Shown here one piece after another: positions 3,001-61,100 of a stretch of DNA of 64,000 nucleotides. Origin of the DNA: Sphaerolaimus hirsutus (Eukaryota > Nematoda > Chromadorea > Monhysterida > Sphaerolaimidae); assembly GCA_964036195.1 (NCBI GenBank), contig OZ038452.1, forward strand, positions 23,757,785-23,821,784, in the 5' to 3' direction. Made by a program: the position numbers and the translations under genes. Below the pieces are notes generated by a model. It saw only the letters and a program-made list of their open reading frames with translations. It was not told where the DNA came from and searched no databases. The stretch's first letter is position 1; each line of letters begins with the position of its first letter.

Positions 3001-6000
3001 TAGTCTGCTTCGACCGGGCATTCGACAAGCGTCGATTTCTACTCGCCGCCATAGACCAGGCGGCAGTCCCAGACCCTGTAAAGTGTCCTGTAAAATGTAA
3101 AATGTCTTGCAAAGTGTCAAAAGTCATGGAAAATGCCCTGCAAAATGGCAACTCGGTTGCCATTTCGCAGCGCATTTTCCATGCCTTTTGACACTTTGCA
3201 TGACATTTGACATTTTACAGGTCATTTCACAGGGTCTGGGACTGCCCCCAGGGAATTGTCAACGACGAATACATGTTCATTTTTCCCGATTATATACCGA
3301 ATGAACAGGAGGCGACATTTTGGCTGACGCCAGAGGGAAAAGAAAACGATGGAAAAGATGTGAATGCTATTGAAGCTATGAAAAACAGCATGCTGGTTGG
3401 GATTTGGGAGGGGTTTTGGGTTAAGTCCTACCCTGAAAGTTTGGTTTCACCATTTTTAAAATACTACATGAGAAATGACTTGCGAAAAATCGCTTGGAAT
3501 ACCCCAACGGCTGTAAGTTAAATATGTATTTACCCACTATATGTTAAATATTTATACTCGGCGCCCGTGGGCATTTCGAGGGGGTCAGTTCAAAGGGGTA
3601 CAATTCAAAGAAATACGGTGGAAGTACGGGAGAAGTATCGTTCTTGTGTGAAAACAACAAACATCCCCCTTGGATTATTCCCTTCTTAAATAGTGCCCCC
3701 TTAAAAAAATTCTGGCAAAAAAAAGTGCCCAGGGTATAATTTGAGCAATTGTGGTATGTATTAATAATACCTTTGCTTGGCCCACTCATTTTTAGGCCCA
3801 ACTTTGCTAATACACAAAAAAAGTGTAATCAAAACGACCTTTCAATTGCAGATAGCGATCAAAAGCATCGACAACATGGAGCTGAAATATTTCCTGGAAG
3901 ATGTCCCCAAATTTACATCCCAATTGCCATTCAATGTTACACTTCCGGATTTGACTGGCCAAGTGGCGAGTGTAAAATTTTGCTTTTGAGTAAAAACAAT
4001 TGCATCCCAATCCTTTCTACTTTAAGTATCATTCATGCATTTGTGTCACCAAATTGCAAACATCGGCCCCTACACACATTTCGAGGGGGCTTGCATTCGA
4101 ATTTCGGATTACGGACAAAGTTACGGTATTCAGGGTTATTTTCCTTATTTTTCACAAAATAGTCTAAAAATACACTTGGATGCTAGAAATGTGGCATAAA
4201 GTGCCAGACTTGTTAAAATACTGGTATTTCTGGAAAGCGTACACGTAAACGTAAATACGCTTTCCCTCAAAATCAGGGCTCAACCTACTCACCGTACCTG
4301 TACGATGCGTTTTACCTGTACGCCAAAGTTGTGCGAAACATTTTAAATTCCGGTGATGTGGCCGACCTGTCGGATGGGCAAAAGGTGATCGAAACGGCAA
4401 AAACAATTACATTTACAGGTTTGAGACTTTCTTTGCTTGAAACATAAGTTGGTAATTTTTGCGAATATAAGTATTTTTTCAGGAAAATCAGGTTTTGTCG
4501 TGTTGGATGACACTGGCTCGCGTATAAGCGAATTTACGGCTAGAATGTTGATGATCGATGGTTCGAACGTGCCCATATTTGATGTCAGCTTGCACAAGTC
4601 TTCAGACGAGGTAACATTATTGTAAAAACGTATTTACGTTTACTCGATAATTACGGATACTCGAGTACTGCGTAAATACGTTTACGTTTCCTCGCGAAAA
4701 AAATACCGGTACTCACTTACTCGCGTACTTTTTGAAAGTACGCGAGTACAGAAAACGTATTTTTAGGGGACATAAAATGTTATCTTGCCAAACAGAAAGT
4801 GACAAACATAAGACATTTTCGTAAGAAATACTTAGCAGGAGAGAAAACACATCATTTTGTATATCAGAGTGAAAATTAGAAATTTACAGAATTTTTCTGA
4901 GAAAAATACTAACTTTTACGTTTTCTGTGAGAAAAAATATATCCGTTTTTTACGTTCTCTCCTGAAAAATCTCGTTTTTACGTTTTCTCTGGAAAAAAGT
5001 ATTTTACTCACGTTTTACGCAGTGTAAAAGTATTTTAAAAATACTTTACGTTTTCTGTACCCAGGATTGAGTAAAAGAAAAATACTTTACGTTTACGTTT
5101 ACTTTTTAAAAAGTTCAGTACTTCTAACAACTCTGCGAGGTAAGTTTCGTGGGGTTAGTAGATCTTGGGACTTGGATTGGCTAGATAAAGCCGCTGCACA
5201 CACTAGTTTACTAATGGAAAACTAGGAATTTGGTAAACTCATTTTTTAGTTTCCTCGCGCATCTGAGTTTACCGGAATGTGTTCTTTTCAATCTCCGTCA
5301 ACTGTAGTTGACAAACAGCTCATTTCGGTAAACTCAGATGCGCTCAGAAGCCGAAAAATGAGTTAACAAAATTCTTAGTTTACCGTTGGTAAACTAGTGT
5401 GTGCAGCGCCAATATAGCTGGTTGAGATTTAGTTGCTGAATGACCGTATTTCCTCTATTTGAATGAGCGTTAGATGAGCGAGTAATAAAATAACTAATTC
5501 CCCACTTGACTAATACCCCACCATCAATGCAAACTACTAAGATCTGGCGGAAATATAACCCCTCCCCTCGAATAACTCCCCAGTCTAAAAAGTCTGATGG
5601 AAAAATAACTCTCTGGAGGTGGGGAGTGCTTATTTGAGGATATACGTTAAGCCATGCACGTCGATAAATAGCGCTGTAATCTGGAGATTTTTAAAAAGTT
5701 TGAACACTGTTTTACCTGATCGGAATTGATAATTATTTAGAACTTAATCGTATCTTAAACACGCAGATGGTCAAATTGCTGAGCTTGACAATGTCGAAAA
5801 TCTTTGAAACGTACGGAGGGTCGCCCCCACCCGACATCCCCGAATGTGGCTATGATGGATTGCAGTGTGATGACTCTGGTTTGTAAAATTATTTTTGTTA
5901 TTTTTAGTTTTAGAAGCCTCATTAAGAGACAATTTTGCAAATTAACAAGTGACAAGAAATGTGTTACCTGGTAAAGTTGTGCTCAGAGTGGTTAAAGTAC

Positions 6001-19371: not shown

Positions 19372-19590
19372 GCCGGTTCCGCAAGTGGAAAAGTTAAGAG
19401 TTAAAACTTAAGAGTTGAGTAAAATGATAAATGATAAATTAAGAGTAAAGTTAAAAGTTAAGAGTTGAGTAAAATCATTTGTCGTTTTACTCAACTCTTA
19501 AGTCTTAACTTTACTCATAACTTGTCATTTGTCATTTTACTCAACTCTTAAGTTTTAACTCTTAACTTTTCCACTTGCGGAACTGGCCCG
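19372..19590. mobile_element. Inverted-repeat element with AGTTAAGAGTT motifs
   Basis: GGTTCCGCAAGTGGAAAAGTT at left, AACTTTTCCACTTGCGGAAC at right; related elements lie near 24257-24465 and 25392-25540. Confidence 0.8.
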
Positions 19591-19612
19591 GAAATTTTAA
19601 ATTTTTTTTAAG

Positions 19613-20031
19613 CAGCGTTTACACGCTTTCGTGTGCCGACAAAAAAGTTTGGTGGAAAAGTTCCATAATTCTGGAATTAAGTTTCATATATGCAAGAAAA
19701 AACGGTGAATTGTGCTCACTAGTTATGTGTACACACATGCCAATTTGCAGATAATTTGAGCATGTCGTTCACGAATTATGGGCAATTGAAAATGAATTTT
19801 AGTTGTCGGTTCGGTTTTCGTTTTGAAACCGAACCGACAACTGAAATTCATCTTCAAATGCAAATAAGTTTTGAACAACAGGCTCAAATTATATGCAAAT
19901 TGGCATGTGTGTAGACTTAACTAGTGAGTATACTTCACTGGCTTTTCCCGCAGATACGGAACTTTATTCCGGAATTATGGAACTTTCTCGCTTAACTTTT
20001 TTGTCGGCACACGAAACCGTGTAAACGACCC
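19613..20031. mobile_element. Inverted-repeat element with GTTTACACG ends
   Basis: GCGTTTACACGCTTTCGTG, then TGCCGACAAAAAAGTT at left; AACTTTTTTGTCGGCA, then CACGAAACCGTGTAAACG at right. Confidence 0.82.
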
Positions 20032-20529
20032 TTTAGAAAAATATCAAAATTCCAACACTTGTCGTAAGAGTGTTTTTCATCGTTAGCAGTGGGTAGTCTG
20101 CAATGGTGCGTCCGGAGAAAGTCGAAAAACCAGCCCCCGTTGATTCGAACTTTAAAAAAAGTCATCCCAATTCCCAATATCTATGTTTCAGTGCCGATTA
20201 AGAATATAGAAATGGTGTTTACCATGCTTCTACATAGGTGAGCTTTTCACAGCAAATATATAAATAGCACGCTCATACGTACACGCAGTGCGATGCCCAT
20301 AAACTGGGCACTTACTGTTCAAAACTACTGCGAAATAGGCTATACCTCGGTGGACTGCAAAGTATGTGTCCAAAATTACTTATGTCTCAGTTGATAACGC
20401 GCTAGTAGGATACTTATGCACGCACTTTCACAAAAAAAAAACGTTTTAAAAAAGACAGAGTCGCGTACAATCGACGAATATTTTCCCCTGAAACATTTTT
20501 TTCAACAATTTTGATTTTATCAACGATCA

Positions 20530-21059: not shown

Positions 21060-22049
21060 TGACTTCAGGTGTTTTTTTTCGCTGTCGGAAGTCGGCAACA
21101 TAGATTCTAGTTACAGGCACTTTGATTAAGAAAGTAATACCTCCATCGTTGTGGGGGGGGGGGGGTTGATGCATGCATACAGATGCATTCCGACTCAACG
21201 ACACTTCTCGCGCTATGATATTGGGTTACATCGATGGGGCAGTCGTTTTTTTTGGAGCCACAAAAAATTAGCCCAGTGGAAAATGTCCATCTTGGATTGT
21301 TTCATTTTAGTAGCGAATTTTCCGCCAGAGCACTTTTTAAGCTTGAATAGTCTACCAGTACCCAACATGCATCACCTAGATTGAAAGTGGAACCGACGTA
21401 CCTTACATAGGTTAGGTGAATAATTAAATTTTTGCATCTTAGCATATACCACCCCTTCGCGCAGTTAAGAATTTAATTCGAGGGAGCCGCGCTAAAACCA
21501 GTTTAACATTTCTAAATCTAGTGGCGTAAATACAGTGCCCACTGCGCAGTTAAATTGAGTGCAGAGTAATCTAGCTGTTTCCACAACAATGAGTGGAATA
21601 TAGCACAAATGTTTGCACAATAATGGGGCATGAACAGTCCTCGGGAAGGATCACAACAAGGTTGACTTTAGTGCATTTTTCTATTTAAAAAATGTGTTTT
21701 TATTTATCATTTCTGTTGAAAGTTGAAGTTTCCCACTCACATTTCAGAAGTGTATCAGAACAAATACAAAATAAGACATCATGTCAATTGGATATAGGCG
21801 ATGAAGATCTGATTAGAAAAATCTTTGTTGGTTTAATTTGGATTGAATATTTTACAGTGCGATAAGTGGGGGTGTCCTTTTGATATAGATGTCATGTTTT
21901 TGTTGGAAAAATATGCTGTCATAAATATAAACATCTGAAGTGATTGCTTCAAATCATTTTTCTTTTGGTGTAAAGTAAACCGAGTCAATGAATCCATCAT
22001 AAAGCACTCAGTATCACTAACATTATTGATACCAGGATGCAGTAATGTG

Positions 22050-22226
22050 TTAAGTAAAGTGTCAAATGTCATGTAAAATTTTAACCAGAACAAAAAAGAT
22101 ATTTTATTACTGAAGTTTGCATGACAATTGACACTTTACCTTACATTTGTCATGACAATTCACACTTTTATGACATTTTACATGACATTTGACACTTTAC
22201 TTTACAGGGTCTGTGATTGGCACCAT
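22050..22226. mobile_element. Diverged introner-family element upstream of the GPCR
   Basis: Inverted repeats of the GTGTCAAATGTCATG type ending in CTTTACAGGGTCTGTGATTG followed by GCACC. The left terminus is unclear. Confidence 0.5.
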
Positions 22227-22641: not shown

Positions 22642-25600
22642 CCAGGCAGTACAAATGTGAGCTTCATCATGGTCGGAATAATTGGGCTATTTTTCGCGTT
22701 GTGCGCACTTGTGGAAAACGCGTTTGTACTGTATTCGTTAGCCAGCAAACCTCAACACAGGTCAGTGGAAGACGAAATTTTGAGGAAGGCAGGGTGTTTT
22801 TCCGGCTCAATCGAATTCACCAGGGTTCAGTCTAGCGCCTAGTAAAGTGTCATCTAAAATGCCAAATGTCATGCAATGCAACTAGTCAAGTAGAAAATGA
22901 TTTAAATAGGATTTGTTACTGTATTTTTGACATTTTGCATGACATTTGGCCCTTTACATGACACTTTACGGTGTACGGTTTTCACCGTTTTCACTTAATC
23001 GGCTCTAACTAATAGCGCCAATGCTGGCAAATCGTACAACCCTCTAAAATTGGTCTACATTTTGCACGTTCTAAACACACGTTATAATTTACCATGCCCC
23101 AATTTCAGACAGTCAAACTTTGTCTACCTAATCTTTCTTGCGGGTTCAGACATTTTTGTTTCAATCACTTATTTGCCAATGTTTGCCATTGATGTTTGGA
23201 GGTGGAAGTTAAAAATTCCAGGATTATTCCAGTTCTGGGTTAGTTACCTTACACACAATTGGATATTATTCATGTTTTTGAACTGTCTAGTAGTCTGTAG
23301 AAGTCTGGATTAGTGATGGAATGGCGCCGTGGCGCTGGCGCTCTTTGATGGCGTCAAAGAGCGCCAGCGCCATGGCTAATTGCCACTTGGCGCTCTTTTC
23401 TCTGACGCTTTTTTTTGAATGGCGCTACGGCGTCATTGGCGCCTAGCGCCGTTTTCTTTGGAGCCCGGCGCCATTTTTCTGGATGGTGCCATTTCTCCTA
23501 GCGCTTTACCATCACTAGCCTGGATCTAGTAAAAGCTTGGGACAACCATGATATAACAAAAATGATTTGCAAAGAGAGAAATAAAATACAAACACATCTG
23601 GAAATGAGTTGCTTATGGGCATGATTTTTAATTTTTCTCTTTTGTATTTCTGATTGTCTGTTTGTTTGTGATTGTCCGAAGCTTGAACTGGCGTTTGCTC
23701 ATTTTCCCTGGCAAATTTCCAAAAAATTATCTCTATCATCTACAGGTTGAAAATACGCCCTGGTTACTGACAGTGACCCACATCACCATGACTGCCAATA
23801 CATTCATTCTTCTCTTGGCCACATTTGAGAGGTTTTTGCTATCGAATCACTACTCTGTTAGTTTGAAAATTAATTAGCTTTAATTAAAAAATTGACACCT
23901 ATTTTCTGAAAAGCTACATTTTACGTTTTCAGAAAATCTTATCGTTTGTTAGCAGAAGAAGATACGGCCTTTGTTGTTCGGCGTTAATTTTAGCATCGAT
24001 ATTGAAATTTTCAGTTTACCTAGAAATTGGAGAAAGGGTTTGTTTGACATCGTGTACGTATAAATAAAATTATCGTCCAAAATACACCCAAGGTTTTTTT
24101 ATTTCGACAGCAAAATTACATTAGCTTCATTCGTTTTCTTTTATGCGCGTGCTCGTTTTTTTGTATTTAGGTATGTACATTTTATAACATCCAGTTTTCA
24201 TAATTAGTACGGTCGATACCAATTCAAAAGAGGGGTGGGTATTCTCTCCAGCTCACTCAGGCCTCTGCTCTGCAAGTGGCAAAGTAAAGAGTTAAGAGTT
24301 AAGAGTAAAGTGAAAAAAGAGTAAAATGTTACCTTAATGGAAAGTTAAGATTTAAGTGAATAGGTGGTAAAGTTAAAAGTAAAGATTAAAGTAAAGAGTC
24401 AAAAGTGAAGTAAAGAGCAAGAATAAAGCTTTACTCATTACTTTGCCACTTGCAGAACTGGATCCTGGGGGTATTTTGAAGGGGAGATGGGCCAACTCAA
24501 TAAGGCCGTTAATTCGAGGATATACGGTAGTCTTTTAAATCACAAATCGCACCTTTAACAACATTATGAATCAGTTCATCTGTGCAGGTGAGCGACGCGT
24601 GCATGAACGATCCATATTTCAGATGGGAACTTTACCAGACCAGTTGGGCTTCGCAGGGGGGCGCCTACGAAGTTTACAGATTTTATATTAGGTCCATACT
24701 TGCCAGGTGCGCCGTTTACTATTCGGATTTGTTTTTCAATGGGTCAAATTAAGTCAGTTTGAAGGAAACTTACAGCTTGACAAAAAACGGCTGACACGAA
24801 AAATTGAAATGCGTCGTACACTTGATAACATAATAACGGATAGAGGCCCTGAATTTTACGAAATATTTTGATGAAAAATTTCTTACCTCGAAAATACCCC
24901 TCAGAAACTTCCGACAAAAAATAACTCCCCCGGGGTCTTATTCTAGGTAATACGGTAATCATATCTTATTCACGTTTCATTACCATTGGCCATCCCAGGG
25001 GGTGGGGTTAATCGAGGGGGTGATTTTTCCTCACGCGGTAAACAGGTTACCTAATATAATATTCAAGTGGGGCTTATTCGAAGAATTGATACGACAGATG
25101 TGAAAGCGCTTCCGTTAACCCGGCCGTCAAATTTGATCACAATCCCAAAATATTAAAAGAACACGTTCAACATTCAGACTTCTGCCATTTCTGACGCTGC
25201 TAATATTGAACATCAGCATAGTGCGCAGCCAGAGCAAAAAGACTAGAGCGGCTCAAATTGGGAATGGCTCCAGTCACTACGGGAGCACGGATTCGGATAA
25301 CAGGTGGGAGTTTTCGCACAGGGGCGGCCACCAAATGCGTACGGTGAGTGAGGTATTTGTAGGGGTTTTGTGATGGCACCTATGCACCTGGGCCCAGTTC
25401 CAAATCATGACAGATACAATTATCTAGGTACATAAATGCACGTTTAAGACAGAAAGAGTAAAGTAAAGTAAATTAAAGTAAAGTAACGTAAAGAGTCAAG
25501 AGTAAAGTACTTGCCAACTTGCGGGACTGGCCCCAGGCGGCAGTCACCCATGTCATGTCAGTCAAAAGTGTCTAAATCAAATTTCATGTAAAACGTCAAT

Positions 25601-28600
25601 CAAAAAAATAAAAAAAATTTACTGGACTTTTGACAGTATGTGTGACATTTGACATAAATATGTGTACTAGTGATGGAAAAGCGCCAGAAAAAATGGCGCC
25701 AGGCGCCAAGGGCGCCATGGCGCCATTCGGAAAGTGGGCGCCAAGCGCCAGGGGCGCCACAGAAAAAGGGCGCCAGGCGCCAAGGGCGCCATGGCGCCAT
25801 TGAGAAAGTGGGCGCCAGGCGCCAGGGGCGCCACGGAAAGAGGGCGCCAAGCGCCAAGGGCGCCATGGCGCCATTTGGAAAATAGGGCGCCAGGCGCCAA
25901 GGGCGCCAGGATAAAAAAGTGCCTACAACACCATGCGTGTGCTAAAAATGTTTCTCCAGCACCATTATATGCGCATTCAGATCTTAATTCGCGTTCTCCA
26001 GGATGTAATGACAAAAAACAAGGCGAGGAACAAAAATTTTTTTGAATAAAATCCACATGACGAATTCAAACGTAATGGAAATTGTCATTTGACAACAATC
26101 CATTCATTACAAATAGACCTTTCCAAACAATGTTTCCTAATTGCAACGATTTAAATCCATTTATTTATGATTTTGCAAGTTAGACGGTCCATCATTCTTG
26201 TCTTCTGATCCGTCAGACAGATCTGATGAACCGTTGGACGAAAGATTTCCACCCACTCACACCACTCCGTCCATTTTTCTGGCGAATTTAGATCATCCAC
26301 GGATGCGGCTTTCTTTTTTTTCGTTTACACAGCACTCACCGTGAAACCTTGATGGCGCTTTTTTGGCGCCCTTCTAAAGCAGGGCGCCAGGCGCCAAGGG
26401 CGCCACGGAAAAAGGGCGCCAAGCGCCAAGGGCGCCATGGCGCCTTTCAGAATGTGGGCGCCAGGCGCCAAGGGCGCCACCGAAAAAGGGCGCCAAGCGC
26501 CAATGGCGCCATGGCGCGGCGCCCTTTGGCGCCCTCAGATGGCGCCAGCGCCATGGCGCCATTCCATCACTAATGTGTACACCTACATTTTGCATGACAT
26601 TGGCGCTTGTCATAACACCTAACACGACACAGGACGTTCCCCACGGTCCAAAATATGATAAATATGATATTTACGTTACGATACCACCCTAAATTTCAAA
26701 GTGATAAAAAATAAGACTAAAAACTCCAAAAAATAATCCAGCGTCGGAAAGCGGCCGAACGCCTGGGGCTGGTGTTTCGTTTCCGGAACAATATGCGTAT
26801 GAATGTGAATCGGATGGACTTGTTTTGGGTTTGGAATGTTTTCCGACCCAGTTTCCTCTGCTGCTAGACCTACCGTACCTGGTCGAATAACTCCCATGGG
26901 GGATTATTATTTTGTCAAAATATCAACTCATTTCGCGAAATTATTAACAAGTATTATTCACGCTATATTAACAAAAAAGATGCAATTGGACACAATAAAA
27001 TTATCATATGGTTATTCAGGCCTGTGCCTCTTGGCATCTAAACCGCTAGGCATCTGGACCCGGATGGCATTAATTTCTCCCCGCTTGACATCTAGACCTG
27101 CATAGCATCTATCCAGTGCCGAATGCAGAGCGGGCTACATGCCAGCACATGTCATGCGGGTTTCCATGCTATGTAGGTGTAGATGCCAATCAGGCTGAGC
27201 ACCGCCACCCCTGCTAGAGCTACGCGACACAAAGACTAAACGCTACACGGCACAAAGACAATAGATTTAGAGCCACTGTTTTACATGTAAATTTGATGCT
27301 ATTTACGATCACAAACGATCTGTGTGGGGAGGGGTGTTTATGCATCAAACGTTGAGGTCAGGAGCCAAGCACAAAGGGGCGTCCATTGTGATGTGTAGTT
27401 GCATTCTTCTCTGTCCTTTGTGTTTGCCGCCTGAGTGACAGTGCTCACAACACCCCCCCGCCCGCCCGCATGGCATCTAGACCCCCCTACCCACCTGGCA
27501 TATGGCTCTGCCCGTCCGCTTGGCATCTACGCGACTGTCCGATTGGCACCCGGCACTGCATAGATGCCATGCGGGTTTAGATGCCAAGTGGGTAGAAATT
27601 ATAGCCATCCGGGTCCAGATGCCAAGCGGTTTAGATGCCATGAAGGCCTTGACCGGTTATTCGAGGGTGGAATTACCTATTCTTTTTCGTCACTCGTCCA
27701 ACGGGCGGGGGGGTGTCCAAGATAGAAAATTATTCAAGGCAGGGGAATTATTCGAGCAAATACGGTACATTTACCCCCTTGGAACTTCTCACAACCCAAT
27801 TCAAGTACTGACTGAAATTTCCCACCGCTGTCTTGTTTGAAATTTGCAATTTCTCTCGTTTCGCGCAAAAAGCATGTCATCGTTGCATCGAGAGAATTTT
27901 GCATGATCGCATATTTAGCAATGCGAAACGAAATGTTTTTTTCCTACATAAAAACTTGCCTAAGCGATAGTGGCAATAAAAACTAACACAGTTGTCAAGA
28001 AACGACACAGATGACACGAAAAGTCTCTGGAATGTAAATAGGTGTCATCAACAGCTCATTTACTGTATTTCTTCGAAATACCCCCTCCCTCCATTTCACC
28101 CCGTCAAAAGTTGCACTCTGAAAAATAAACCCCCTGGGGGTATTTCGAGGAAATACAGTAAATTAGCCGCCCTTTTACTTTGATAAATGATTAAAAGATA
28201 AAAATGCTTTCAAATTAGACATGCAGCTTTTTAGCAGCTTTTATTGAGCCAATGCGCTTCAGCACACCAGAGTTGTTTTAACAAAGTTGTCATCCCAAAG
28301 TTGTTAAAACAACTATGCGGCACACGTCGACAATGGGAAACATTATCATCAAAAAGTGGATTTACGCAGAAATCACCAGTTATAATGCTATCCCATGGCT
28401 TCACATCCATTCTACGGATATACATGTTCATCACAGAGTACTGCCACTTGTATGATATACCTGTATATGTTTACCCATAACCATATTTGGGAACTTAAAA
28501 AAAGCATTTTTAATAAAAAGCGTTTCTTTCCATCCCCGCTCGATTCCCTAGTCCCTATTTTACCAGTGTATAATGCAACTTCTAAATATAGAAAATCAAA

Positions 28601-31600
28601 AGACTGCCATATGCGGATGTGTTTATGTCAGCGAGAAAAATATGCATGCGACCATGCCCATCGTTCGATGGAAAGGCACCGGAAACAGCAAGGGCCATCC
28701 CGGTGCCGGTGCCATTGTTACTTCCGAACCGTACCAAACGGTCTCAAAGTGTCCGGGGCGGACCATTTGCTCCGGTGCCTTACCACCGCCAGTCCGGCAT
28801 CTTCCAATTAGGGTTCAAACGGGATCCCGATCCCGATCCCGGATCCCGTGAAATTCCGGGATTTAGCAGTCCCGATCCCGATCCCGAAACTTTTCAAATC
28901 CCGATCCCGAGAAACTCCAAAGTCCGGGATCCCGATCCCGGAAAAATTTGTGGAAATTATCAAAAGTGAAAAAACTACGTTTTTGCATGCAAAAATGTGA
29001 ACGCAAACCCCCAGTGTTCATCTTATGCCACGTTTCTGGCATCCAACAGTGTTTTAGGACCTTTATGAACAACTGTGGATGCCAAAACATTGGCCAAAAT
29101 CTCCATCCCAAGACCCCAATCCCGATCCCGAAAAAATGCCAATCCCGATCCCGATCCCGTGACTAGTGATGGAATGGCGCCATGGCGCTGGCGCCATTTG
29201 AGGGCGCCAAAGGGCGCCGCGCCATGGCGCCATTGGCGCTTGGCGCCCTTTTTCTGTGGCGCCCTTGGCGCCTGGCGCCCACATTCTGAAAGGCGCCATG
29301 GCGCCCTTGGCGCTTGGCGCCCTTTTTCCGTGGCGCCCTTGGCGCCTGGCACCCTGCTTTAGAAGGGCGCCAAAAAGGCGCCAGCAGGGTTTCACGGTGA
29401 GTGCTGTGTAAATGAAAAAAAAATGAAAAACGCATCCGTGGATGATCTAAATTCGCCAGAAAAATGGACGGAGTGGTGTGAGTGGGTGGAAATCTTTCGT
29501 CCAACGGTTCATCAGATCTGTTTGACGGATCAGAAGACAAGAATGATGGACCGTCTAACTTGCAAAATCATAAATAAACGGATTTAAATCGTTGCAATTA
29601 GGAAACATTGTTTGGAAAGGTCTATTTGTTATGAATGGATTGTTGTCAAATGACAATTTCCATTGCGTTTGAATTCGTCATGTGGATTTTATTCAAAAAT
29701 TTTTTGTTGCTAGCCTTGTTTTTGTTCATTACATCCTGGAGAACGCGAATTAAGAAGTGAATGCGCGTACAATGGTGCTGTAGAAACATTTTTAGCACAC
29801 GCATGGTGTTGTACGCACTTTTTTATCCTGGCGCCCTTGGCGCCTGGCGCCCTATTTTTCAAATGGCGCCATGGCGCCCTTGGCGCTTGGCGCCCACTTT
29901 CCGTGGCGCCCCTGGCGCCTGGCGCCCACTTTCCGAATGGCGCCATGGCGCCCTTGGCGCCTGGCGCCCTTTTTCTGTGGCGCCCTTGGCGCTTGGCGCC
30001 CACTTTCCGAATGGCGCCATGGCGCCCTTGGCGCTTGGCGCCATTTTTTCTGGCGCTTTTCCATCACTACCCGTGACCCCAATCCCGGCCAATCCCGATC
30101 CCGATCCGAAATCTCAAAAAACCAATCCCGATCCCGAAAAGTCAATCCCGTTTAAACCCTACTTCCAATAGACACTTTCCTACCTTGCAAACAAAAATTC
30201 CCGCCAAAAGCTGTCCAAACACCAAAAACACAAAAAAATTCGCAGCAAAAAGTGCGCGAGGCCACTCGAATCACAGTTCTCAACGTGTGCTCATACTTAT
30301 TCGCCAATGTCACCGATGTGACCGTGACCACGATGGAATTCTTCAGGTGGCACTCCCAGACCCTGTAAAATGCCCTGTAAAATGTCAAATGTCACGCAAA
30401 TTGGCAAGGTCATGGAAAATAACCTGTGAAATGGCAAAGACGTTTGCCATCTTACACGGCATTTTACATGACCTTTGGCACTTTGCGTGGCATTTTACAT
30501 TTTACAGGGCACTTTACAGGGTGCGGGAGTGCCCCCAGAGTGGACTGGCTCGTCGGGGACGCCTATTTTTATCAGTACAGCGCCGACCTAGTCAACATGT
30601 TGGTGATGATTTCGTTGGCGCTCAGATTACCCATCTACACCGCCGTCAACCAGCAGCTAAGATTGGCTTTTCTGGTGAGGGACATTTGAGTTAATTTGAG
30701 AAATGAGAAGTGAAATGAGAAGAGAAATGAGTAGTGAATTGAGAAGTTAATTGAGAGCTGAGTTGAGAGGTGAAATGACTAGTGAATTGAGAAGGGAACC
30801 GAGAAAAAAAAGTTGAGAAATGAAATGAGAAATGAATTGAGACGTTTCGAAAATATTTATTCTATTTTTTATATATTTTTATGCATTTTTTTGCTAAATA
30901 TATTTTTTTTACTTCTCAAGTCACGCATGTAAGATTCGCCTTTTGGCTTCGGCATGTTACTTTCACGCTGGACAATGTTACTTTCACCTTTGAGCATGTC
31001 AATTTCCAGAACATGTCAGATTCCTATGGCGGCATGTCAGTTTCCACCACATGTCAGAGTACACAACGTGTCAGAATAACCACATTTGAAAATTTGCACC
31101 ACAAAAATTCAGTAACCCAAACACGCAGAACACCTTGCCGAGATTCTGCCAATCAAATTGCTGTCTCAATTCAGCGCTAAAAGGTGCGCAGCCAACCAGA
31201 TCAAGAGCAATCAGGTGCCACTCCCAGACCGTGTAAAATGTCCTGTAAAATGGCAAATGTCATGCAAGGTGTTAAAAGGTCATGTAAATTGCCCTGTAAA
31301 ATGGCAAACGTTTTGCCATTTTCCAGGGCATTTTCCATGAAATTTTACACTTTGCATGACACTTGCCATTTTACATGGCATTTAACAGTCTGGGAGTGTC
31401 CCACAGGAAGAAATCTACATCCGCAAGCAATAACAGCGACACAGTGAGCCAGTCAAACATAGAAACATTGAATGCAAATTCAATGTCGGAATATGTGGAC
31501 CACCATGGAAAAGTGAACAATGTGCTATTGGCAAATGAGAGGTGGCTCGTTAATTGCGACTCTATAGATAATGATGATGATGTGTACAAGTCTTGTGATG

Positions 31601-32287: not shown

Positions 32288-35200
32288 TCATAACTTTCCC
32301 CTTGGAACGTGTTTAGCCATTTTCATTTGTGTCTCCGTCCGCTGTCTGAGTACCCGCCTGAGTATCTTTCCCGACGGCAATTTGGGTATTTTATCGATAA
32401 ATTCGATACCACCCTCGAGGCGTTTGTAATGCGCCACACGTTCTGCGGAATAATTTTCTGTTTGGAGACTTTTGTTACGTTTTTTACACGTAATGTACGT
32501 GTCATTTCCTTGTTGTAAATTGAATGTGTGTCCTGAAACAGTCCCAATTTTCAGGATCAGTATTGGGGTTTTGGGATCATAATCGGGACCGCAAAATCCC
32601 GAAAATTATCAAAAGTCGGGATCGAGATCCCGTTTGAACCAAATACAAGCCCCCAGCCGATGAAAAAACCCATGTACGTAGAGTTACACTTCACATACTC
32701 ACACACAATATTTATAAGCAAACTATACGCTAATAGGGCAGCAAAAGAAGAAATGTAAAAACGGAAGTAACTTTCTTTCCAACCTATTCAACACTTCAAA
32801 CGTTTCTTACCTTCAACAAAGTGCACGATTTCTGCGGCTAATTTACGCTTCTCATCGTTACACACAGCAGGGCTCGCCGGTACGATATAGGCTCGCGGTA
32901 CCTGCGTGCAGAAATATGTTACCGTATTACCTCGAAATACCCCCATGGGGGTTTATTATATCGCCAGCAAAATTTGAGAGGGGTTAAGTAGAGGGGGGGC
33001 TTATTCTAGGGGGTTGGGTATTTTTTCGTCAGAAATTTTCGTAAGGATCGTAGTAAATAGTAGGCATGTTCGTACCCAAAACGGATAATAAATGTGTTTA
33101 AACACAATATATTTGGACATAAAAACGTAGATAACTACACAAACTAGTCTAGGTGTAGCTGAAATGCAAATTAGCAGTAATAAACACATCTTGTACATTG
33201 CATACATGATGTAAATCCTTCCGGAGGGGGTATTTCGAAGGGGTTCATTATTTTCCCAGCCCATTTTGAGGGAGGGGAGTTCATTCGAGCGGGGATAATT
33301 CAAGGGGGATAATTCGAGGTAATACGGTAATATAAAAGGTGTACGAACAGATTGTGACTATGGATGTGTATCTTAATTTAGTTAACAGACGGCATCCTTG
33401 GCACAGAATGTCACCCTGTGGTGATGATTTCTGTGCTAAATCATCCCAGAGCCGAAACAATGCTTTTGCATTTTTGATTGGTTGTTCCGAAGATAAATAA
33501 CTTTAAAAAATTTGTGCAAAATTTGCAATCGGCACTCGGCAGTTGAAAATGGAAGTTTATGCGAATATATTTTTATCAATTTCGACTTAAATCATTTTTG
33601 GCAGTGGTGGAGGCGAAATCGGGGGCAGTCCTGTAAAATATCAAATGTTATACAAAGTGCCATAAGTCATGTAAAATGCCCTGCAAAATGGCAACCGAGT
33701 TTACATGACTTAAGACACTTTGCATGACATTTGACATTTTACAGGGTTTGGGACTGGCACCTGGACGCATCAACGCACCTGGCCCTTGCTCGCGCTGGGC
33801 ACCGGCACGACTGCAGCGTCAGCCACATGTTCATTGGCCAGCAGCAAATCCTCAATTTCCGCCGGAGCCACCTGAAAATTGCCAAATTTATTTTTTTTAA
33901 TACACACATCCGTTTTATAGACGAGTAGAAATTACAGTTAAATAAATTTTGACTCACCTGAAACCCGGACACTTTGATGAGTTCTTTGACTCGATCGACA
34001 ATGTAGAAATTGCTGTCCGTGTCGTAGTAGCCCATGTCACCTGTGCATCAGGGGGGGGGGAATCTTCTAAATTTGCTGCCTAAAGGGGATTGTTAGGCGG
34101 TGTTTACAGTGAAAAATTAGCGATGACAACATTTTTTTAAAGTTTATCATATTTCAAGGAAAAACTTCCGTATTTGTGAGAAAAAGCAGGGAAGTATGCT
34201 TGAGTGTATATACACATGCCTAGTTTCAGATAATTTGTACTTGTTGGCTATACCTACATTATAAGCATATTTCAAAATTATTGATGCCGCAGCTCAGTCG
34301 CAGCCAACCCAATACTGAGCCCAGTGTCAAAAAGAATCCTCTGTTTTACACGCAGGAAAAAGTGCAAAAAGACCAGTGTGCAGCCAATTGTTCTCATCAA
34401 TGGTAGCCCTAGTTTCTGCTTCATTTCTATGGTATCCGAGCATAATGGCCGGAGATGTGCACCATAATTCACCAATTTCATTGGGACCCAACCATGCACC
34501 GGTTTTGGTGTCCACCACCTAAAAATGTGAGCTTGAAATGTTTTGAGTTTTGCGTTTTGTGATTGAAAAATCGCTTATATATTGACGCTACACAAATCAA
34601 TTGCAAGTGAAAGCGATTTCAACACGTTTCGTTTTTGGTCTCACTGAGTAACTAGTGAGTTGACCAGCAGTCAACTAGTTCGCGTAACCACATTCGAAGC
34701 AAGCTCACAATGGCTTTGTAATTAGGCAACATTGGGCCCACGGAGGCAATTTTCAAATTCGCACCATTGCCAACCGGCGTCTGCATGTGGCTGATACCCA
34801 ATTCGCTCATACCGTAAGCTGCGAAAAAATGCGAGTGTTCAGTTCGTGAATGCTTGAATAAGCTCTAGAATAAGCGATTTGCTAAATATCTTTCAAAACC
34901 CCCCGAAGGTTCAAAATCTAGGATCACTAAGTAAATATGACCACCTTGTGGCCCAGCCGCACGGAATGAGCACCGGGTGTGAACATTAATACCGGCACAG
35001 GGCTGTAACTTGATAAAAAACATCATACAATGTTAATTGATGGTGTTTGTAAGATAACCCTCGAATAACACCCCAGTCAAGATAATGCCATTGTCAAATT
35101 GTCAAACTCCCCAGCGACTCATTCGAGAATATACTGTATATTTTTTGACGGTAATAAGCTACAAAGCGACAGCCAAACATCGAAAAGAGCCAACCTTGTA

Positions 35201-41091: not shown

Positions 41092-44000
41092 TCAATCCTG
41101 ATTTGCAATTTCACTCTGAGCCTGCTCTCTAAGTATCCGTCTGAGTATTTTGCCCGACGGAAGTTTGGGTATTTCATCCACAAACTGTATACCCCCATCC
41201 AGACGCTTGTAGTGCGCGGCGCGGTCTGCACAGAAAAAAATCAAGTAAAATTACATTTCACCCGAAAAATTGTAACACATAATTGTATTATTATTCACCT
41301 TCAACAAATTTCGCAATATCTACGCCGAGCTGACGTTTTTCATCTTCACGAACGTTTCTCTGTTTCAGCACGATGTAGGCGCGCGGAACCTGCGAAACCA
41401 CCGATTATAATCTGAATAAACAGATTGAAAAATTGTGAATGGTGAGATTGGTTAGTCCATAAATCTTGTCGAGCTGGGGGCAGTCCCAGACCCTGTAAAA
41501 TGTCAAATGTCATGCAAAGTGTCGAAAGTCATGTAAAATGCCCGGTAAGATGGCAAACGTACGTTTGCATACGGGCATTTTACAGGTCCTGGGACTGGCA
41601 CCTGCCAGACGCACTGTACCAAACTGGCACCAAACGATACTATAACTAATGCGGATGTACTTTACCAGTAAGGAAAAATCCACATAGAATCGGTAAAAAT
41701 GGGCTTACTACCAATATCCCCTCCATGGACATCTTTTTCCCTGGATAGAAATAGTCCGCGAGAACTATTTCCGTCGACTGTGGGTAAATAGTCCTCGATA
41801 GAAAGGCCTATATCCCCCCATTGTATAAGTAAAAATGCGGGTTTGCCACCATCAAAACAATGAATAGGACATTGAACAATGAATAGTACATATAGGCGTT
41901 ACGCACACTAGTTCACGGTGAGACTTTGGAAACTGATAAATCAGCTCTGAAGAAGATTCAGTTCACCGGAATGAGAAGTCCGTCAACTACAGCTGGCGGA
42001 ACTTGAAAATAATCTATTGTGGTTAACTCAAACAAATTCAAGACATATTTCAGCCGTAAACTTGTGTTTCCACAACGGGTGTATCAAGTTTCCCAATTTC
42101 GCGTGAACCCTGCAAACCTGTCCTTTGTCAACGTGCTCCACTGGCACTACGGCTGCATCGGAAACGCTTTTGTGGCTCAATAATAAATCTTCTAATTCCG
42201 CGGGAGCCACTTGAAAGCCGGACACTTTGATGAGCTCTTTTAGTCGTTCGACGATGAAAAAATTGCCATTTGTATCGTAATATGCCATGTCGCCTGAGCG
42301 AGTAACGTTTTTTAACATGTCCCTGGCGCCAATTTTTTCCTGGCGCAGTAACATGGCGCCAACAGCGTTCTTTGCGCTATCAGCCTTTTATGTGGGGCCG
42401 TGTCATTTCATCTTATGGTGCGACTAGTGACTGAAAAGCGCCATGGAGCTGGCGCTTGTCGCAAAAGGAAGAAGCGCCACGGCGCTTATGGCGTTTGGCA
42501 CTATTTTGCTATGGCGCTTGGCGCCAAAAATCTGGCGTATCTTCCATCACTAAGCGCGTTAGAACCCTCGCCGTTAATTTTTCTGGGGCTTTACTTTCAC
42601 TAGAATATGAGCAGACAATGAAAACTGCAGATACCTGTATGCAACCACCCATCATGATCGATCGTTTCCCATGTTTCCGTGGGTCTTTCATGGTAGCCCA
42701 ACATCAAAGAGGGTCCTCTGATCCACATTTCTCCAATTTCATTAGCACCCAGTGAATCTCCACTCTCCGTGGAGACAATTTTTGCGGAGAAATTTGGCGC
42801 CAAGGGACCGACGGAGCCAGGCGCCATGAATTTTGGGTCGTAAATGAGTGGAGTTTGGTAATGTGTCGGTAGACCGGTCTCGGTCATGCCATAGCCTGTA
42901 AAATGTGATGTGTGTAGATATTTAGGGATGGTCAGGGGGGTTTCAAAGGTTATTTTTAAACGTTGTTTTTCACAAACGTCAAACGCGATCAGAGAATTTG
43001 ACATTTTTACCAACGGTTCAACGAGAACTTGAATCTTTGTTGAAATATGTCAAATACAGCAGGGCACTTGACAGTTTGACACATGGAATTCCAAAGAACA
43101 GGACGACTACCTGAAGTGACAGAAATAAGCCACCAACCCTGCAAAACGTGTGCGATCCAGGGAAATTTATGTTTCACGTCTTTGATCAAGTTTTCGTACA
43201 CCGGGGCAGCGCCCGTAATTATCGACTTGATCGATCTGAGGTCGAAATTGTCCATCAGGGGACTTTTTGCCATCAAAACCAATATGGGCGGCACCAAATA
43301 GAGCACTGGCGGCTGAAAATTCCAACCCAGGCTACAAATTATTAACAAAGCCTACCGTATTTCCTCGAAATACCCCCAGCCCCAGGGTTGTTACCTATGC
43401 CAGAGTGCACATTTTGAGGGGGAATTCGAGGGGAGGTATTATTTCACAAAATTTTTGTGAACTCCCAGTACTTGATCGTTGTTTGTAAACGTAAGCAGAT
43501 GTATAAAAATACAACAAAAACCGACATGTATAAGCGTCTATAAACTTCTATAAGAAGGTATCAAGATGGTATAAGCCCTGTCCTAAAGGAACTCAGGCAC
43601 AAACTGCAGATTTTGTCAATTACATTCTCTTTACAATCAATTCGGGTGTGGGTATTTCGAGGGGGCTTATTTTTCATAAGATCGAGTTATTTCGAGGGTG
43701 AATATTTCGACGAAATACGGCAAACTAAAATTTTTTTCCCAGTTTTCAGGCAGCGTGTCGTCACAAATCCCTACGAACGCCCCTTCACCAACCTCGTATT
43801 TCTGCACGGCGCTGAAAAACTTGTCCGGTTCGAATCTCGGCTGCAAAACCACGGTGCACCCGTCGCAGAGCTGCTTGAACACGATCACGAAGGCGTACAT
43901 GTGGAACATGGGCAAAAACATGACCGAGTGTTCGCCCAGCTTCGGCTTTACATAATGCTCTAGGCTGCGTGTCGAGTTGGAGCGTACCTAATTGGTTATA

Positions 44001-47965: not shown

Positions 47966-48236
47966 GGGCATAGAAGGAAGAAAAAAGAGAAAAATCGCTA
48001 AAAGTACAAGAGCATATAGTACTAAATATTGCTGAAAATAGGCAAATAGGAACCAGAACCATGATTTTGTAACTGAAAATCTATAAAAAGGTATGAAAAA
48101 TAGCGATTTTGAGCGAAAATTGGGATATAGTTTCGCAAACATCGCTCCAGATAGGTATAGATAGGTTTTTTATAGATAGCTGGGCGATTTGGGGGGGGGT
48201 TTAGGGGGTAGCAGCCCAAAATTTTGGGGCATGCCT

Positions 48237-48602
48237 AATACGCACATCTGCCCGTTACGCACATTTGCCTGTTTTTTCATGTGACACTTTTTCAAGTGAT
48301 GTTCAAATATGAGTGAAGTGAAAAAAAGTTGCGCAATGACATCAGTGAACTTTTTTCACTTCACTCACATCTGAAAATCACTTGAAAAAGTGTCAAGTGA
48401 AAAAACGGTCAAAAATAGCCATTTTTCACCGTTTTTTCACTTGACAATTTTTCAAGTGATGTTAAAATATGAGTGAAGTGAAAAAAGTTCACTAATGTCA
48501 TTGCGCAACTTTTTTTCGCTTCACTCATATCTGAAAATCAGTTGAAAAAGTGTTAAGTGAAAAAACGGGCAAATGTGCGTAACGGGCAGATGTGCGTATA
48601 AG
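48237..48602. mobile_element. Palindromic element with TACGCACATCTGCCCG ends
   Basis: TACGCACATCTGCCCGTTAC at left and GTAACGGGCAGATGTGCGTA at right. The interior has two alternating hairpins of TTTTTCAAGTGATGTT and its complement. Confidence 0.85.
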
Positions 48603-48716
48603 TACACCCTCCAAAATTTTGCCTCCGGGATAGATAGGTAGATAGCTGAGCGGCCTCCGGGATAGATAGATAGCTGGGCGTTTTGGGGGGGGGGGGGGTA
48701 ACCCCCCCCATTCGAC

Positions 48717-50251: not shown

Positions 50252-53200
50252 TCACGCTGCACTAAAGAACATTTCAAACCAACATCTATTGGGAATACAA
50301 ACGGATTCAGTGTCCTTCGCGATTACCACGTGTTCCTGATTTTGGAAGCTGTAGGTGATCATGAGCGATTTCTCAGAACCCACAGCCGGGTCGTAAAAGC
50401 CAGGCAGTTGTGCCTGCGATTGTCGATTGTCATGATAGCTGATGTAAAAAGTGACTTTGTCGCCAAGCGCCAATGACGCTAGGGATCAAACGGGATCACG
50501 ATCCCTATAATTCCCGGATTCGGCGGTTCCGATCTCGAAACGCCAATTCCGATTCCGACATCTGAGAACCCAATTCCGATTCCGAAAATTTTCAAATCCC
50601 GATCCAGATCCCGAAAACCCACAAAACCAATGCCGATCCCGATCTCGATAATTCAAAATATTAGTTTGGAAAGAAAGATGTGTCAGTTTCTAGCAACAAA
50701 GCAGAGCGGAGCCGTCATGTTCAACTGTCAACTTTTGTTTCTGTGAAACGGCCAAAGTAGAACCGTTGTCGAAGCCGAAGCCGGACCAGCAAACACAACA
50801 ATCCAAAAACTGACAGAACTTTCTGTCCAACCTAATACTAATCTCGATCCCGAAAAGTCGATCTCGTTTGAACCCTAGATTGTGCATGAGCAAAAAGCGC
50901 CATGCGCCATTGCTGTTTTTGCTTTTGCTGCGGTCTAAAAAGGTATCGATGCTTGCGTTTTTTAAAGACGTTGTTGTTGCTTTAAAAACACAGTTGAAAA
51001 AACCTCGGCCATCCCTATGGAGACTACAAATATTTAGACAAACAAGACCATGTTTTTTAAAACAACCTTGGAAGAATCAGTGAGGAGCAGTTTCGAATCA
51101 GAGACTAAACTCTGCAGTTGCATGGTGACATCGATTACCCGCTCCACGCTCGCCCCATACTGCGCTCTGCAAAATAAAATCGACTTTTTTGACAGTAAAT
51201 AATGGTGTACTTAGAAAAGAACAAAAAAATGAACGGTTGAAGGGTGCTAAATGTTTACAGATGGAAATTAATGTCAAATGAAAAGGGTTCATCTCAAAAA
51301 AACTTTCAGTGGGCAACAGAATTAGGCAACGTTCGCAAATAAAATCGCCTTCGCAACGATCCTACAATTTTTGCACGGACTGGTGATAAACATAAATCCG
51401 TATCAAGATACTTACCTAATATTACGCAGATTTGCCGAAAATCGACTGAAACATTTGACCCGGGTTTCCATCAAGTTCCGAGCCATAAAAAACAGAACCA
51501 GACAAACCTAAACTGATAATCTGCGGGCGAGCCGGCCAGCTGTCCATATTGCGCCTGCACAATGACCAGCCCGGATCTGTTTTCCTCCCGCTGTCGAATT
51601 CTTACCGCTGTGTCGCGCATCAGCTCAACCTAGGTGGACGATTTGCATAGTAAACACCTTCCCGGTCACGTCCGGCAGCCATTTTTTGATTTTACTTCTT
51701 ATATCCTATCCCCAGTTCTAGGGCGCCCCCGAGGCTGAAACTTGGGGGAGATATTGGCGCAACCCCCCTCTACTTCGCATGAATTGGGGGGGTCGCGAAG
51801 ACCCCTCTCAGCGTGGGTCACCCTAAGTGCAAATTTTTTTGTGGCTTTTTTGGTGTCCCACAGCAGGTCTGGCACCCGCTGATTTCTGAGCTGTGGGAGG
51901 GGTACAAATCTAAAATTTTGGGATGTGTTACCAACACCACTCCCCTACTATACACTATTCAATAATGTGAGATAAATGTCAAAAATTTCTTAAAAATACA
52001 CTTATTCTCTAAAAAACACCACTCCCCAAAAGATGGATGTAAAAAATTCACTTTTTGGAACTTTTTTATTAGACACTTGAAGAGCTGGTTTACGATACTT
52101 TAAAGAGAAGGGTTTAATGTTTAAAGTTTTGTAAAGAACCATACCTCTAAAATGCCTGCATTGCAAAATTTACTTGGGCGAATTTTATGACACCATAATC
52201 ACATCATCACAGGAACAAAAATTTACAAAATTTACACTTTGAAATTCCCCCCAAGTAAATTTTGTAATGCAGGCATTTTAGAGGTATGGTTCTTTACATA
52301 ACTTTAAACATCAAACCATTCCCTTAAAAGTATTGTAAACAAGCTCTTCAAGTGTCTAATAAAAAAGTTCCAAAAAGTGAATTTTTTGTTATCCATCTAT
52401 TGGGGAGTGGTGTTTTTAGAGAATAAGCGAATTTTTCAGAAATTTTTCACATTAATCTCACATTATTGAATAGTGTATAGTAGGGGAGTGGTGTTGGTAA
52501 AACATCCTCAAAATTTTAGATTTATACCCCTCCCACAGCTCAGAAATCAGCGGGTGCCGGACCTGCTGTGGGACACCAAAAAAGCCACACAAAAATTTGC
52601 ACATAGGGCGACCCACCCTGAGAGGGGTCGCCGCGACCCCCCCCAATTCATGCGAAGTAGAGGGGGGTTGCGCCAATATCTCCCCCAAGTTTCAGCCTCA
52701 TGGGCGCCATAGAACTGGGGATAGGATATAAGAAGTAAAATCAAGAAAATGGCTGCCGGACGTGACCGGGAAGGTGTTTAGGTGGGTTTTTTATCTCTGA
52801 TGGACATAGACCTACTAGTCCTGTGAACCCGTTAGTCATGTAGACCCGCCAGTCATGTATTTAGGTGGGATTAGCACGGCGCGGGTGATTAGCGGCAGCG
52901 TGTTTACATGATCAGTAGAGTACGTAGAATGGGCCGCAGTGCGTGTGAACTCACATTGTTTGTGTCGCTATTTTGATGACACTGCTCAAATAAAAATTGA
53001 ACAATTCAAATGTGTAACCACTGATTGAGCTTTAAAATATTTTTGAACTGCATCATCACCAGAGCGACAAAAACACATATGCGACATGAGTGCACACGCA
53101 CTGCGGATTATGCTAAGTACTCTGCTAAAATACATGACTGGCAGGTCTACATGACTAGCGGGTTTACATGACTACAGAGTACGGGGCACATGGTCTTTCA

Positions 53201-59188: not shown

Positions 59189-59640
59189 ACTAGCAGGATT
59201 CTCTCCGACCTTCGGTCGGGTTTTGTGGTTCTCTACAATTAATACCATTGGAGAAAATATGATACTTTAGTTAAGTTTGCCCACATGCTAGGCATGTGTT
59301 TTGAAATGCGGTATGTAATCTACCAACAATAACAAGACCAATACCAAAGATGCAATGTTTTGGAATGGATTTTTGTAAACTTCTGTAAAATGGTTGGGCA
59401 TGAAACTCGATAGTAAAATGTAGACAGTTTGCGATTTGGTATGATGGTGTGCAGTGTGCAATCTGTGTGGTATAGGTTTTGTGATATGATAGTGTGGTTT
59501 TTGCAAGGTGTCAAACTTTGTTGTAATCTTCAATTGGTTACATTTGTGCTTTGCTGTTCTTTTTGTGTTTGTAAATCCTTGTGGTATAAATTGTAGAGAA
59601 CCACAAAACCCAACTGAAGGTTGGAGAGAATCCTGCTATA
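59189..59640. repeat. Inverted repeat leading into the minisatellite
   Basis: AGCAGGATTCTCTCCGACC at 59190 and following bases are the complement of GGTTGGAGAGAATCCTGCT at about 59620; pairing extends for roughly 50 bases (TTTTGTGGTTCTCTAC / GTAGAGAACCACAAAA). Confidence 0.75.
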
Positions 59641-59679
59641 GGTACCCACTACTCAGAGGCTTGCAAAAACTGACACCCC

Positions 59680-61100
59680 GATGGGGACCCCCCTCCAAAT
59701 GGCACCCCCTGGGGAACCTCCCAAAAGTGGCACCCCCTGGGAACCGCCCAAAAATGGGACCCCCTAGGGCCCCACAAATATGGCACCCCCTGAGGACCAC
59801 CAGAAAATGGCACCCCTTAGGGCCCCCCCAAAAATGGCACCCCCTTGGGACCCCATAAAAATAGCACCCCCTGGGGACCCCCCAAACATGGCACCCCCTA
59901 GGAACCCCCACAAAAATGGCACCCCCTGGGGACCCACCCAAAGTTGGCTCCCCCTGGGGACTCTCCAAAAATGGCACCCCCCTGGGGACCCTGTGCATTC
60001 TGTGTGGTATAGGTTTTGTGATATGATAGTGTGGTTTTTGCAAGGTGTCAAACTTTGTTGTAATCTTCAATTGGTTACATTTGTGCTTTGCTGTTCTTTT
60101 TGTGTTTGTAAATCCTTGTGGTATAAATTGTAGAGAACCACAAAACCCAACTGAAGGTTGGAGAGAATCCTGCTATAGGTACCCACTACTCAGAGGCTTG
60201 CAAAAACTGACACCCCAATGGGGACCCCCCTCCAAATGGCACCCCCTGGGGAACCTCCCAAAAGTGGCACCCCCTGGGAACCGCCCAAAAATGGGACCCC
60301 CTAGGGCCCCACAAATATGGCACCCCCTGAGGACCAGCAAAAAATGGCACCCCTTAGGGACCCCCCAAAAATGGCACCCCTTAGGGACCCCCCAAAAATA
60401 GCACCCCTGGGGACCCCCCAAACATGGCACCCCCTAGGAACCCCCACAAAAATGGCACCCCCTGGGGACCCACCCAAAGTTGGCTCCCCCTGGTGACTCT
60501 ACAAAACCCAACTGAAGGTTGGAGAGAATCCTGCTTTAGGTACCCACTTCTCAGAGGCTTGCAAAAACTGACACCCCAATGGGGACCCCCCTCCAAATGG
60601 CACCCCCTGGGGAACCCCCCAAAAGTGGCACCCCCTGGGAACCACCCAAAAATGGGACCCCCTAGGGCCCCACAAATATGGCACACCCTGAGGACCACCA
60701 GAAAATGGCACCCCTTCGGGACCCCCTAAAAATGGCACCCCCTTGGGACCCCCCAAAAATAGCACCCCCTGGGGACCCCCCAAACATGGCACCCCCTAGG
60801 AACCCCCACAAAAATGGCACCCCCTGGGGACCCACCCAAAGTTGGCTCCCCCTGGGGACTCTCCAAAAATGGCACGCCCCTGGGGACCCCCCCCTCAAAA
60901 TGGCACCCCATATGGACCCCCCCCGCAAAAAAAAATATAGCACCCCCCTGAGGACCACCAAAAAATGGCACCCCTGGGGACCACCCAAAAAATGGCATCC
61001 CATGTGGACCCCCTTGAAATGGCACCCCCATATGTACCTCCAGAAAATGGCACCCCCTGGAGACCCCCCAAAAATGGCACCCCATGGGGACCCCCTCTAA
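59680..61100. repeat. 27-bp minisatellite with embedded 537-bp duplication
   Basis: Units of the form CCCCCTGGGGACC, then CCCCAAAAATGGCA (27 bases, nine codons). The non-unit segment from TGTGTGGTATAGG to the first units recurs 537 bases apart (59464 and 60001), and its last part again near 60500. Because the unit is a multiple of three, all frames stay open on both strands. Confidence 0.92.

Follow-up and report, generated by a model that had tools for sequence, protein, structure and literature searches.

Palindromic 192-bp elements coincide with predicted introns in the nematode Sphaerolaimus hirsutus and probably represent an introner family with a CWG target

The window examined in the present study, by which we mean the whole stretch of 64,000 nt analysed within a 348-Mb genome of 762 contigs, contains several genes interrupted by copies of one short repeat family. 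The first-pass annotation had proposed that three stretches of exactly 192 bp, at 3060-3251, 30347-30538 and 31215-31406, are introns consisting of an inverted-repeat element and nothing else. Their positions and lengths were confirmed and each contains a single palindrome of an approximately 192-bp family, but each also includes one 3-bp copy of the target site. Regarding the host genes, the name guanylate cyclase for the gene at 3060 was supported in part only, by an ANF_receptor match (3.8e-12) and a kinase-like piece (4.2e-7), and the designation of the gene at 30347 as a GPCR did not stand because its joined receptor peptide matched no receptor family in Pfam and gave one weak unrelated match (E 0.0066). 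The copies of the putative introner in the window and the exons around the best-supported one are as follows.

1042-1232, plus strand: copy in the same ANF_receptor gene as the copy at 3060; CTG/CTG target pair, GT..TG at the seamless junction SAG/LVHEF
1547-1669, plus strand: shortened copy, CTC/CTG
3060-3251, plus strand: whole-intron copy in the ANF_receptor gene; CAG/CAG, GC-AG
22144-22225, minus strand: decayed remnant, with weak further pieces from about 22044
22842-22969, plus strand: decayed remnant in two pieces
30255-30346, plus strand: coding exon left of the 30347 element (REATRITV...MEFF R; 100% self match)
30344-30346, plus strand: left target copy CAG of the 30347 element
30347-30538, plus strand: whole-intron copy, comprising the element at 30347-30535 (GTGGCA...GCCCC) and the right target copy CAG at 30536-30538; GT-AG
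30539-30674, plus strand: coding exon right of the 30347 element (R VDWLVGD...)
31215-31406, plus strand: copy with CAG/CAG, GT-AG; putative coding flanks, judged from open frames alone
33628-33746, minus strand: partial copy
41474-41601, minus strand: shortened copy in the region of an AMP-binding gene; CAG/CAG on the minus strand, candidate junction

The terminal motif, with up to three mismatches, occurred 11 times in the window against a mean of 0.03 in shuffles; the form in which it had first been given, TGGCACTCCCAGACCCTG, reproduces the tip of one particular copy exactly, and the family consensus starts with GTGCCACTCCCAGACCCTG. BLAST with the three 192-bp stretches found six further element places, with matches at 1042-1230, 1547-1667, approximately 22044-22225, approximately 22842-22985, 33628-33746 and 41474-41601, in agreement with the earlier count of at least six more copies, and a scan with the consensus returned 9 loci, 4 of them full, in 64,000 bases. 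The window also holds other long hairpin repeats, at 56430-56999, 48213-48624, 52041-52387, 19372-20053 and 5185-5415, with arms of 103-255 nt that are 82-93% complementary; none of these was marked when the three elements served as BLAST queries, and they perhaps belong to other MITE families. Frames of the APWRPWRLAP or GARRQGRHG type occur in both orientations at approximately 25650-26050 and 29000-30100, upstream of the exons around 30347, and a repeat array at approximately 59490-61100 carries GPPKWHPLGTP or GGPKGCHFWGV open frames on both strands.

The element was characterized from 20 loci of approximately 8.1 kb each around the best genome matches, the window and 20 further small loci, one of which was no match and was dropped. 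Ends were defined for 65 copies, 46 from the 20 loci and the window and 19 from the small loci; the exclusion of three loci that were near-identical to others (L027, L044 and L045) left a non-redundant set of 62. The consensus of the 47 full copies is 192 bp long and matches its reverse complement at 97% identity, which characterizes a palindromic element with terminal inverted repeats (TIRs), and full copies have a mean identity to the consensus of 92% (minimum 64%). In the first 60 bases of the consensus, the two arms differ at positions 2, 4 and 7 only, and the difference at position 2 separates the two tips: of the 47 full copies, 42 have GT and two have GC at the left tip, whereas 41 have GG and one has GT at the mirrored right tip (GT at 42/47 vs 1/47; Fisher p 1e-19). 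The longer forms are GTGCCA at the left in 35/47 and, read inward, GGGGCA at the right in 30/47. This asymmetry indicates that the element brings the 5' splice site. As RNA, the 30347 copy is predicted to fold into a hairpin of -120.4 kcal/mol (z -16.2), a stability that none of 200 shuffles equalled. The copy at 3060 starts with GC, and its orientation is not decided by its tips.

The same copies define the target. Among the 47 full copies, the pairs of flanking triplets were CAG/CAG in 20, CTG/CTG in 13, CTG/CAG in five and CCG/CCG in two, with seven single combinations, such that CAG/CAG or CTG/CTG accounted for 33/47. When copies were oriented by their tips (n=43), the left flank was CAG in 21, CTG in 13 and CCG in three (CAG or CTG in 34/43), and the right flank repeated the left triplet exactly at a fixed offset in 21/43. 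With shifts of a few bases allowed, identical CNG triplets stood on both sides in 40 of the 62 non-redundant copies; in the other 22, the two triplets are not an identical CNG. When there was no exact pair, the nearest CNG was taken, which may have added noise. These counts point to a target duplication of 3 bp, CWG with some CCG. The 4-bp CAGG-like site that had originally been proposed was rejected because the base 3' of the right copy varies, being G in 13, A in four, C in three and T in one of the 21 exactly matched copies; the 30347 copy itself has CAGA at its right edge. With a target of 3 bp, the whole of the GT lies inside the element and the target contributes just the AG, which corrects the earlier account of where the GT originates.

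The joined flanks were translated, and 40 coding-looking peptides, picked by eye among the 65 copies and including some that are not junctions, were compared with Pfam; most copies had no homology support either way. A junction was called clear when a Pfam match above the cut-off or a strong PDB match spanned it, and at ten junctions conserved domains were restored across the joined flanks:

dynein heavy chain, DHC_N1, 6.6e-21 (Pfam)
7tm_1, 1.7e-15 (Pfam)
Med8, 2.2e-14 (Pfam)
Myb, 3e-11 (Pfam)
ANF_receptor, two junctions, 5.6e-11 (Pfam)
TSP_1, 1.4e-8 (Pfam)
Fringe, 1.7e-7 (Pfam)
VWA, 2.9e-5 (Pfam)
DCAF13, 7e-24 (PDB)

Three further junctions had weak matches (L050, L053 and L023). In L021 (Ion_trans), L037 (TPR) and the copy at 3253 of L020 (7tm_1), the domain lay beside the junction and not clearly across it; the copy at 896 of L017 had a weak VWA match and doubtful ends, and the remaining peptides gave nothing or unrelated matches in Pfam. 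Cross-junction alignments to PDB entries were free of gaps in all four cases run (DCAF13, MED8, DNAJC2 and dynein). Searching the genome for the Pfam family Med8 gave no match, and the MED8 gene was located by a peptide search. The GT tip faced the 5' side of the gene in 11 of the 12 orientable clear and weak junctions (p 0.006), and in 8/9 of the clear junctions alone (p 0.04). Many copies are present in the genome, ten of them at homology-spanned junctions, and the copies resemble each other from end to end, up to and including both predicted splice boundaries.

Paralogues in the same genome provide the empty sites. At 30347, all seven non-self genome matches run straight through the junction, including a paralogue at C13:3808281-3808508 that is uninterrupted across it (72% amino acid identity, 152/228 at the DNA level), a C761 copy identical to the C13 copy at 227 of 228 positions, and five others at 29-42% identity. 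The five non-self matches at the 3060 junction are likewise uninterrupted (31-41% identity). In the L020 receptor interrupted at 4941, 14 of 16 non-self matches begin ahead of the junction, although in four cases by only 2-3 residues, and two begin beyond it; the split copy occurs again on contig C579. One distant match to DNAJC is uninterrupted, and each of three nearby copies on C3 is split. The junction peptides of DCAF13, MED8 and the 1042 copy matched no second place in the genome. By this within-genome comparison, the predicted introns at the junctions with uninterrupted paralogues are probably gained and not ancestral.

Taken together with the inverted repeats, the target duplication and the restored domains, these findings support the logic proposed at the outset, in which an element and one target copy would be removed and the old exon restored. 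We consider the elements to be introners, namely palindromic DNA transposons of the non-autonomous type (MITEs) whose most likely mobilizer is a PHIS-superfamily transposase with a CWG target, and assign this reading a probability of approximately 0.88. The element would insert at CWG and duplicate it. Its left tip, which has GTG in place of the GGG of the right tip and of NuwaI tips generally, would bring the 5' splice site and may be derived and adaptive, while the C run of the right tip followed by the AG of the duplicated CAG would supply the 3' splice site. Where a correctly oriented element had inserted at a CAG within an exon, the spliceosome would remove it together with one CAG, and the old message would be exactly restored.

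Some copies do behave as ordinary MITEs that landed within older, pre-existing introns. The myosin locus L076 has two stretches of element remnants inside larger introns, and its paralogue L077 has the same introns without them. The ordinary myosin introns inspected, judged by eye and not by gene prediction, each have a fitting GT and AG. Although true for myosin, this reading was rejected where paralogues run uninterrupted, and it is very improbable as a general account because the coding flanks at the ten clear junctions are separated by the element and one target copy only and the paralogues found have no intron at these places. The insertions may alternatively be damaging alleles that break their host genes; several junctions end without AG, and some copies sit in large receptor families in which a loss may be tolerated. 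However, DCAF13 and MED8 are each present at one genomic place with open flanking exons, and in both, as well as in the dynein heavy chain, conservation reaches the junction from both sides, and we regard breakage as very unlikely. A protein-coding insert of approximately 64 extra amino acids merits next to no credence: in 27/47 full copies the combined length of element and target copy is divisible by three, and some frames are open, but all 13 elements in which the frame of the gene was followed contain 2 to 4 in-frame stops, which excludes read-through in these 13 cases, and the length of 5/13 is not a multiple of three.

With elements accepted as probable introners, the question arises of how the copies without a target AG may be processed. 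A seamless AG end is present at five of the ten clear junctions (dynein, TSP_1, VWA, 3060 with its GC start, and Fringe). It is absent from MED8, the 7tm gene and 1042, in which the target is CTG/CTG, and from DCAF13, in which it is CCG/CCG, because these triplets leave no AG at the seamless junction; the DNAJC element lies in the reverse orientation, so that GG stands at the start of its seamless junction. These five odd copies may be removed either at TG, at CG or from GG, or through a neighbouring site, and the cases of MED8 and DCAF13 suggest GT-TG or GT-CG splicing. One possibility, which we hold tentatively and consider rather doubtful, is that splicing would be seamless whatever the target, with the GT of the element and a 190-nt hairpin that draws the two ends together permitting AG, TG or CG as the 3' end; TG- and CG-ended introns in single-place conserved genes such as MED8 and DCAF13 would later mutate to AG, and an excess of right-hand CAG would record this change.

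The other possibility, to which we give slightly better than even odds, is that copies at CTG and CCG targets are also spliced as GT-AG through a nearby AG or an inner GTAAAA donor, with small in-frame changes to the protein. An in-frame AG lies at -9 in the 7tm copy, where its use would add three residues, and at +6, downstream of the seamless junction, in both the DCAF13 and 1042 copies, where each would drop two; in the reversed DNAJC copy, an inner GT at +18 with a CAG at 0 would add six residues in frame. Such near in-frame AGs may offer an alternative to TG and CG ends, least so for MED8, in which there is no AG within 12 nt and the nearest in-frame GT-AG pair would drop 10 MED8-aligned residues. 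An in-frame AG within 12 nt was present in 10/18 non-AG copies, but was equally frequent where it is not needed (15/30 AG copies, p 0.77), and we rejected selection for nearby AGs in non-AG copies because they are no commoner there; the gap-free alignments of DCAF13, MED8 and DNAJC2 at the seamless junction also speak against this possibility. The target pairs themselves are lop-sided, in that copies with CAG on the right and another triplet on the left outnumber the reverse by 13 to 3 among all copies (p 0.02) and by 8 to 0 among full copies (p 0.008), with CTG/CAG exceeding CAG/CTG by 7 to 1 (p 0.07). This skew fits AG being favoured after insertion, and so fits TG being a poor site as well. 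Copies at CAG and CTG represent a natural experiment on the strictness of the 3' AG rule and on the improvement of splice sites after insertion.

Regarding the mobilizing enzyme, the CWG targets and GGG-type tips are in agreement with NuwaI/PHIS (Harbinger-related) transposons. The NuwaI group of PHIS (PIF/Harbinger-related) was described from animals only, with a CWG target site duplication (TSD), a TIR of 12-61 bp that usually starts with GGG, and autonomous candidates of approximately 4.5 kb, most with two open reading frames (PMC4482050). The 3-bp CWG duplication is shared by the present family, in which the right tip is mostly of the GGG type but the left tip reads GTG; it also differs from the NuwaI elements described there in that only palindromes of approximately 192 bp were seen. 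At least 163 DDE_Tnp_4 matches were found in the genome, among which three copies of two families were read (L032; L033 and L034), and these three included no autonomous element with introner ends. L032, of the commonest DDE_Tnp_4 kind, had no introner tips within 4.8 kb. L033 and L034 are 99.3% identical over 3,668 bp and each carry a divergent introner, CTG/CAG, inside a Harbinger-type transposase gene (approximately 125-325 on the minus strand in L033 and 621-818 in L034); being common to both, this introner appears to travel with the transposon copies. The transposon ends of L033 and L034 were not located, and no introner tips stood at the ends of the sequence read, so that the assignment to PHIS is based on the target and the tips. 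A viral carrier was rejected: an exact 19-base match in viral contigs was attributable to chance, with 22 aligned bases and no element around it.

Introners have been reported in few animals, in two animal groups with copepods among the hosts (PMC9860276, Gozashti et al. 2022), a paper whose main text contains neither "Harbinger" nor "superfamil"; in the literature searched, which does not extend to subscription journals and preprints, "introner" and "Harbinger" occurred together in a fungal study only. The introners of Symbiodinium and other lineages resemble the present elements in having TIRs, a short target duplication and many similar introns, and in taking one splice site from the element and the other from the duplicated target, with mRNA length mostly unchanged (PMC9860276). 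However, the Symbiodinium elements have a 4-bp target, with the 3' site in the element and the 5' site from the target (PMC9860276), whereas the present ones have a 3-bp CWG target, with the 5' site in the element and the 3' AG from the target. The introns of the larvacean Fritillaria borealis are similar in that a triplet occurs twice, ahead of the 5' site and as the 3' end, and introner transposons with weak splice sites were named as a possible source of splice-site divergence in Fritillaria; 95% of its introns are non-GT/AG and the triplet is YAY (PMC13326754), whereas the triplet here is CNG, the commonest copies allow GT-AG and the ordinary myosin introns judged by eye fit GT-AG. The introner elements of Amoebophrya resemble the present ones in their inverted repeats, in the direct repeats of 3-5 nt that bound them, in hairpins by which exon ends are joined and in non-canonical ends, but they are described from parasitic dinoflagellates, where the repeats vary and no inverted repeat is specific to a family (PMC7789003), in contrast to one conserved family in an animal. 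For 36 human genes, U2-type introns are reported to use TG as an alternative 3' splice site (PMC2374985), whereas here TG would be the sole seamless site.

Introners are already known, animals included (PMC9860276), and introner-like introns of non-canonical type have been described from Fritillaria (PMC13326754) and Amoebophrya (PMC7789003). As far as the papers in the searched literature show, a palindromic animal family with a CWG target, a one-sided GT tip and a high copy number is new, as is the possibility that conserved genes tolerate TG and CG ends, although the species or family may be described in subscription journals or preprints, which lay outside the search. The origin of new introns is an old question, and a hairpin element of this type would show one route by which an animal may gain them; this genome offers a dense introner family with clean ends and empty paralogous sites, in which the difference between the tips lets the element carry a 5' splice site.

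In a first look at the genome, scoring of 40 of 2,312 candidates yielded 84 matches; as the element is palindromic, most of the places were hit on both strands. Density was estimated from 20 pieces of two kb at round-number positions on ten large contigs (40,020 bases), which contained four element loci, none of them full; scaled to the genome, this corresponds to 34,800 loci, remnants included, with a Poisson range of 9,500-89,000. The sequence around the seeds contained 30 loci, 12 of them full, in 146,120 bases; seed loci and the window were chosen because the element is present, and only the 40-kb sample was scaled up.

Several minor observations were made on the assembly. Adjacent introner copies, tandem or nested, lie at 4396-4807 and 6701-7077 of L029. 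The near-identical loci L044/L048, L045/L049 and L016/L027, as well as C13:3808281 with C761:38172 and C579 with C6:11037884, are perhaps unmerged haplotypes. COX1, translated with code 5, is that of an animal: among the best 120 of approximately 8,000 hits, the two nearest sequences are 90% and 81% identical and the others 66-73%, with the organisms named there, mostly insects, at 66-70%. COX2 gave a similar result under the same limit of 120 hits, with 74% identity to the nearest sequence and 45-52% to named organisms. Contig G000:C762, on which L010 and L011 lie, is the mitochondrial contig, of 14,754 bp with genetic code 5; by eye, nad2 and nad1 are on the opposite strand from cox1, atp6, cox3, cob, cox2, nad3, nad5, nad6, nad4L and nad4, and cob appears to be split across two frames.
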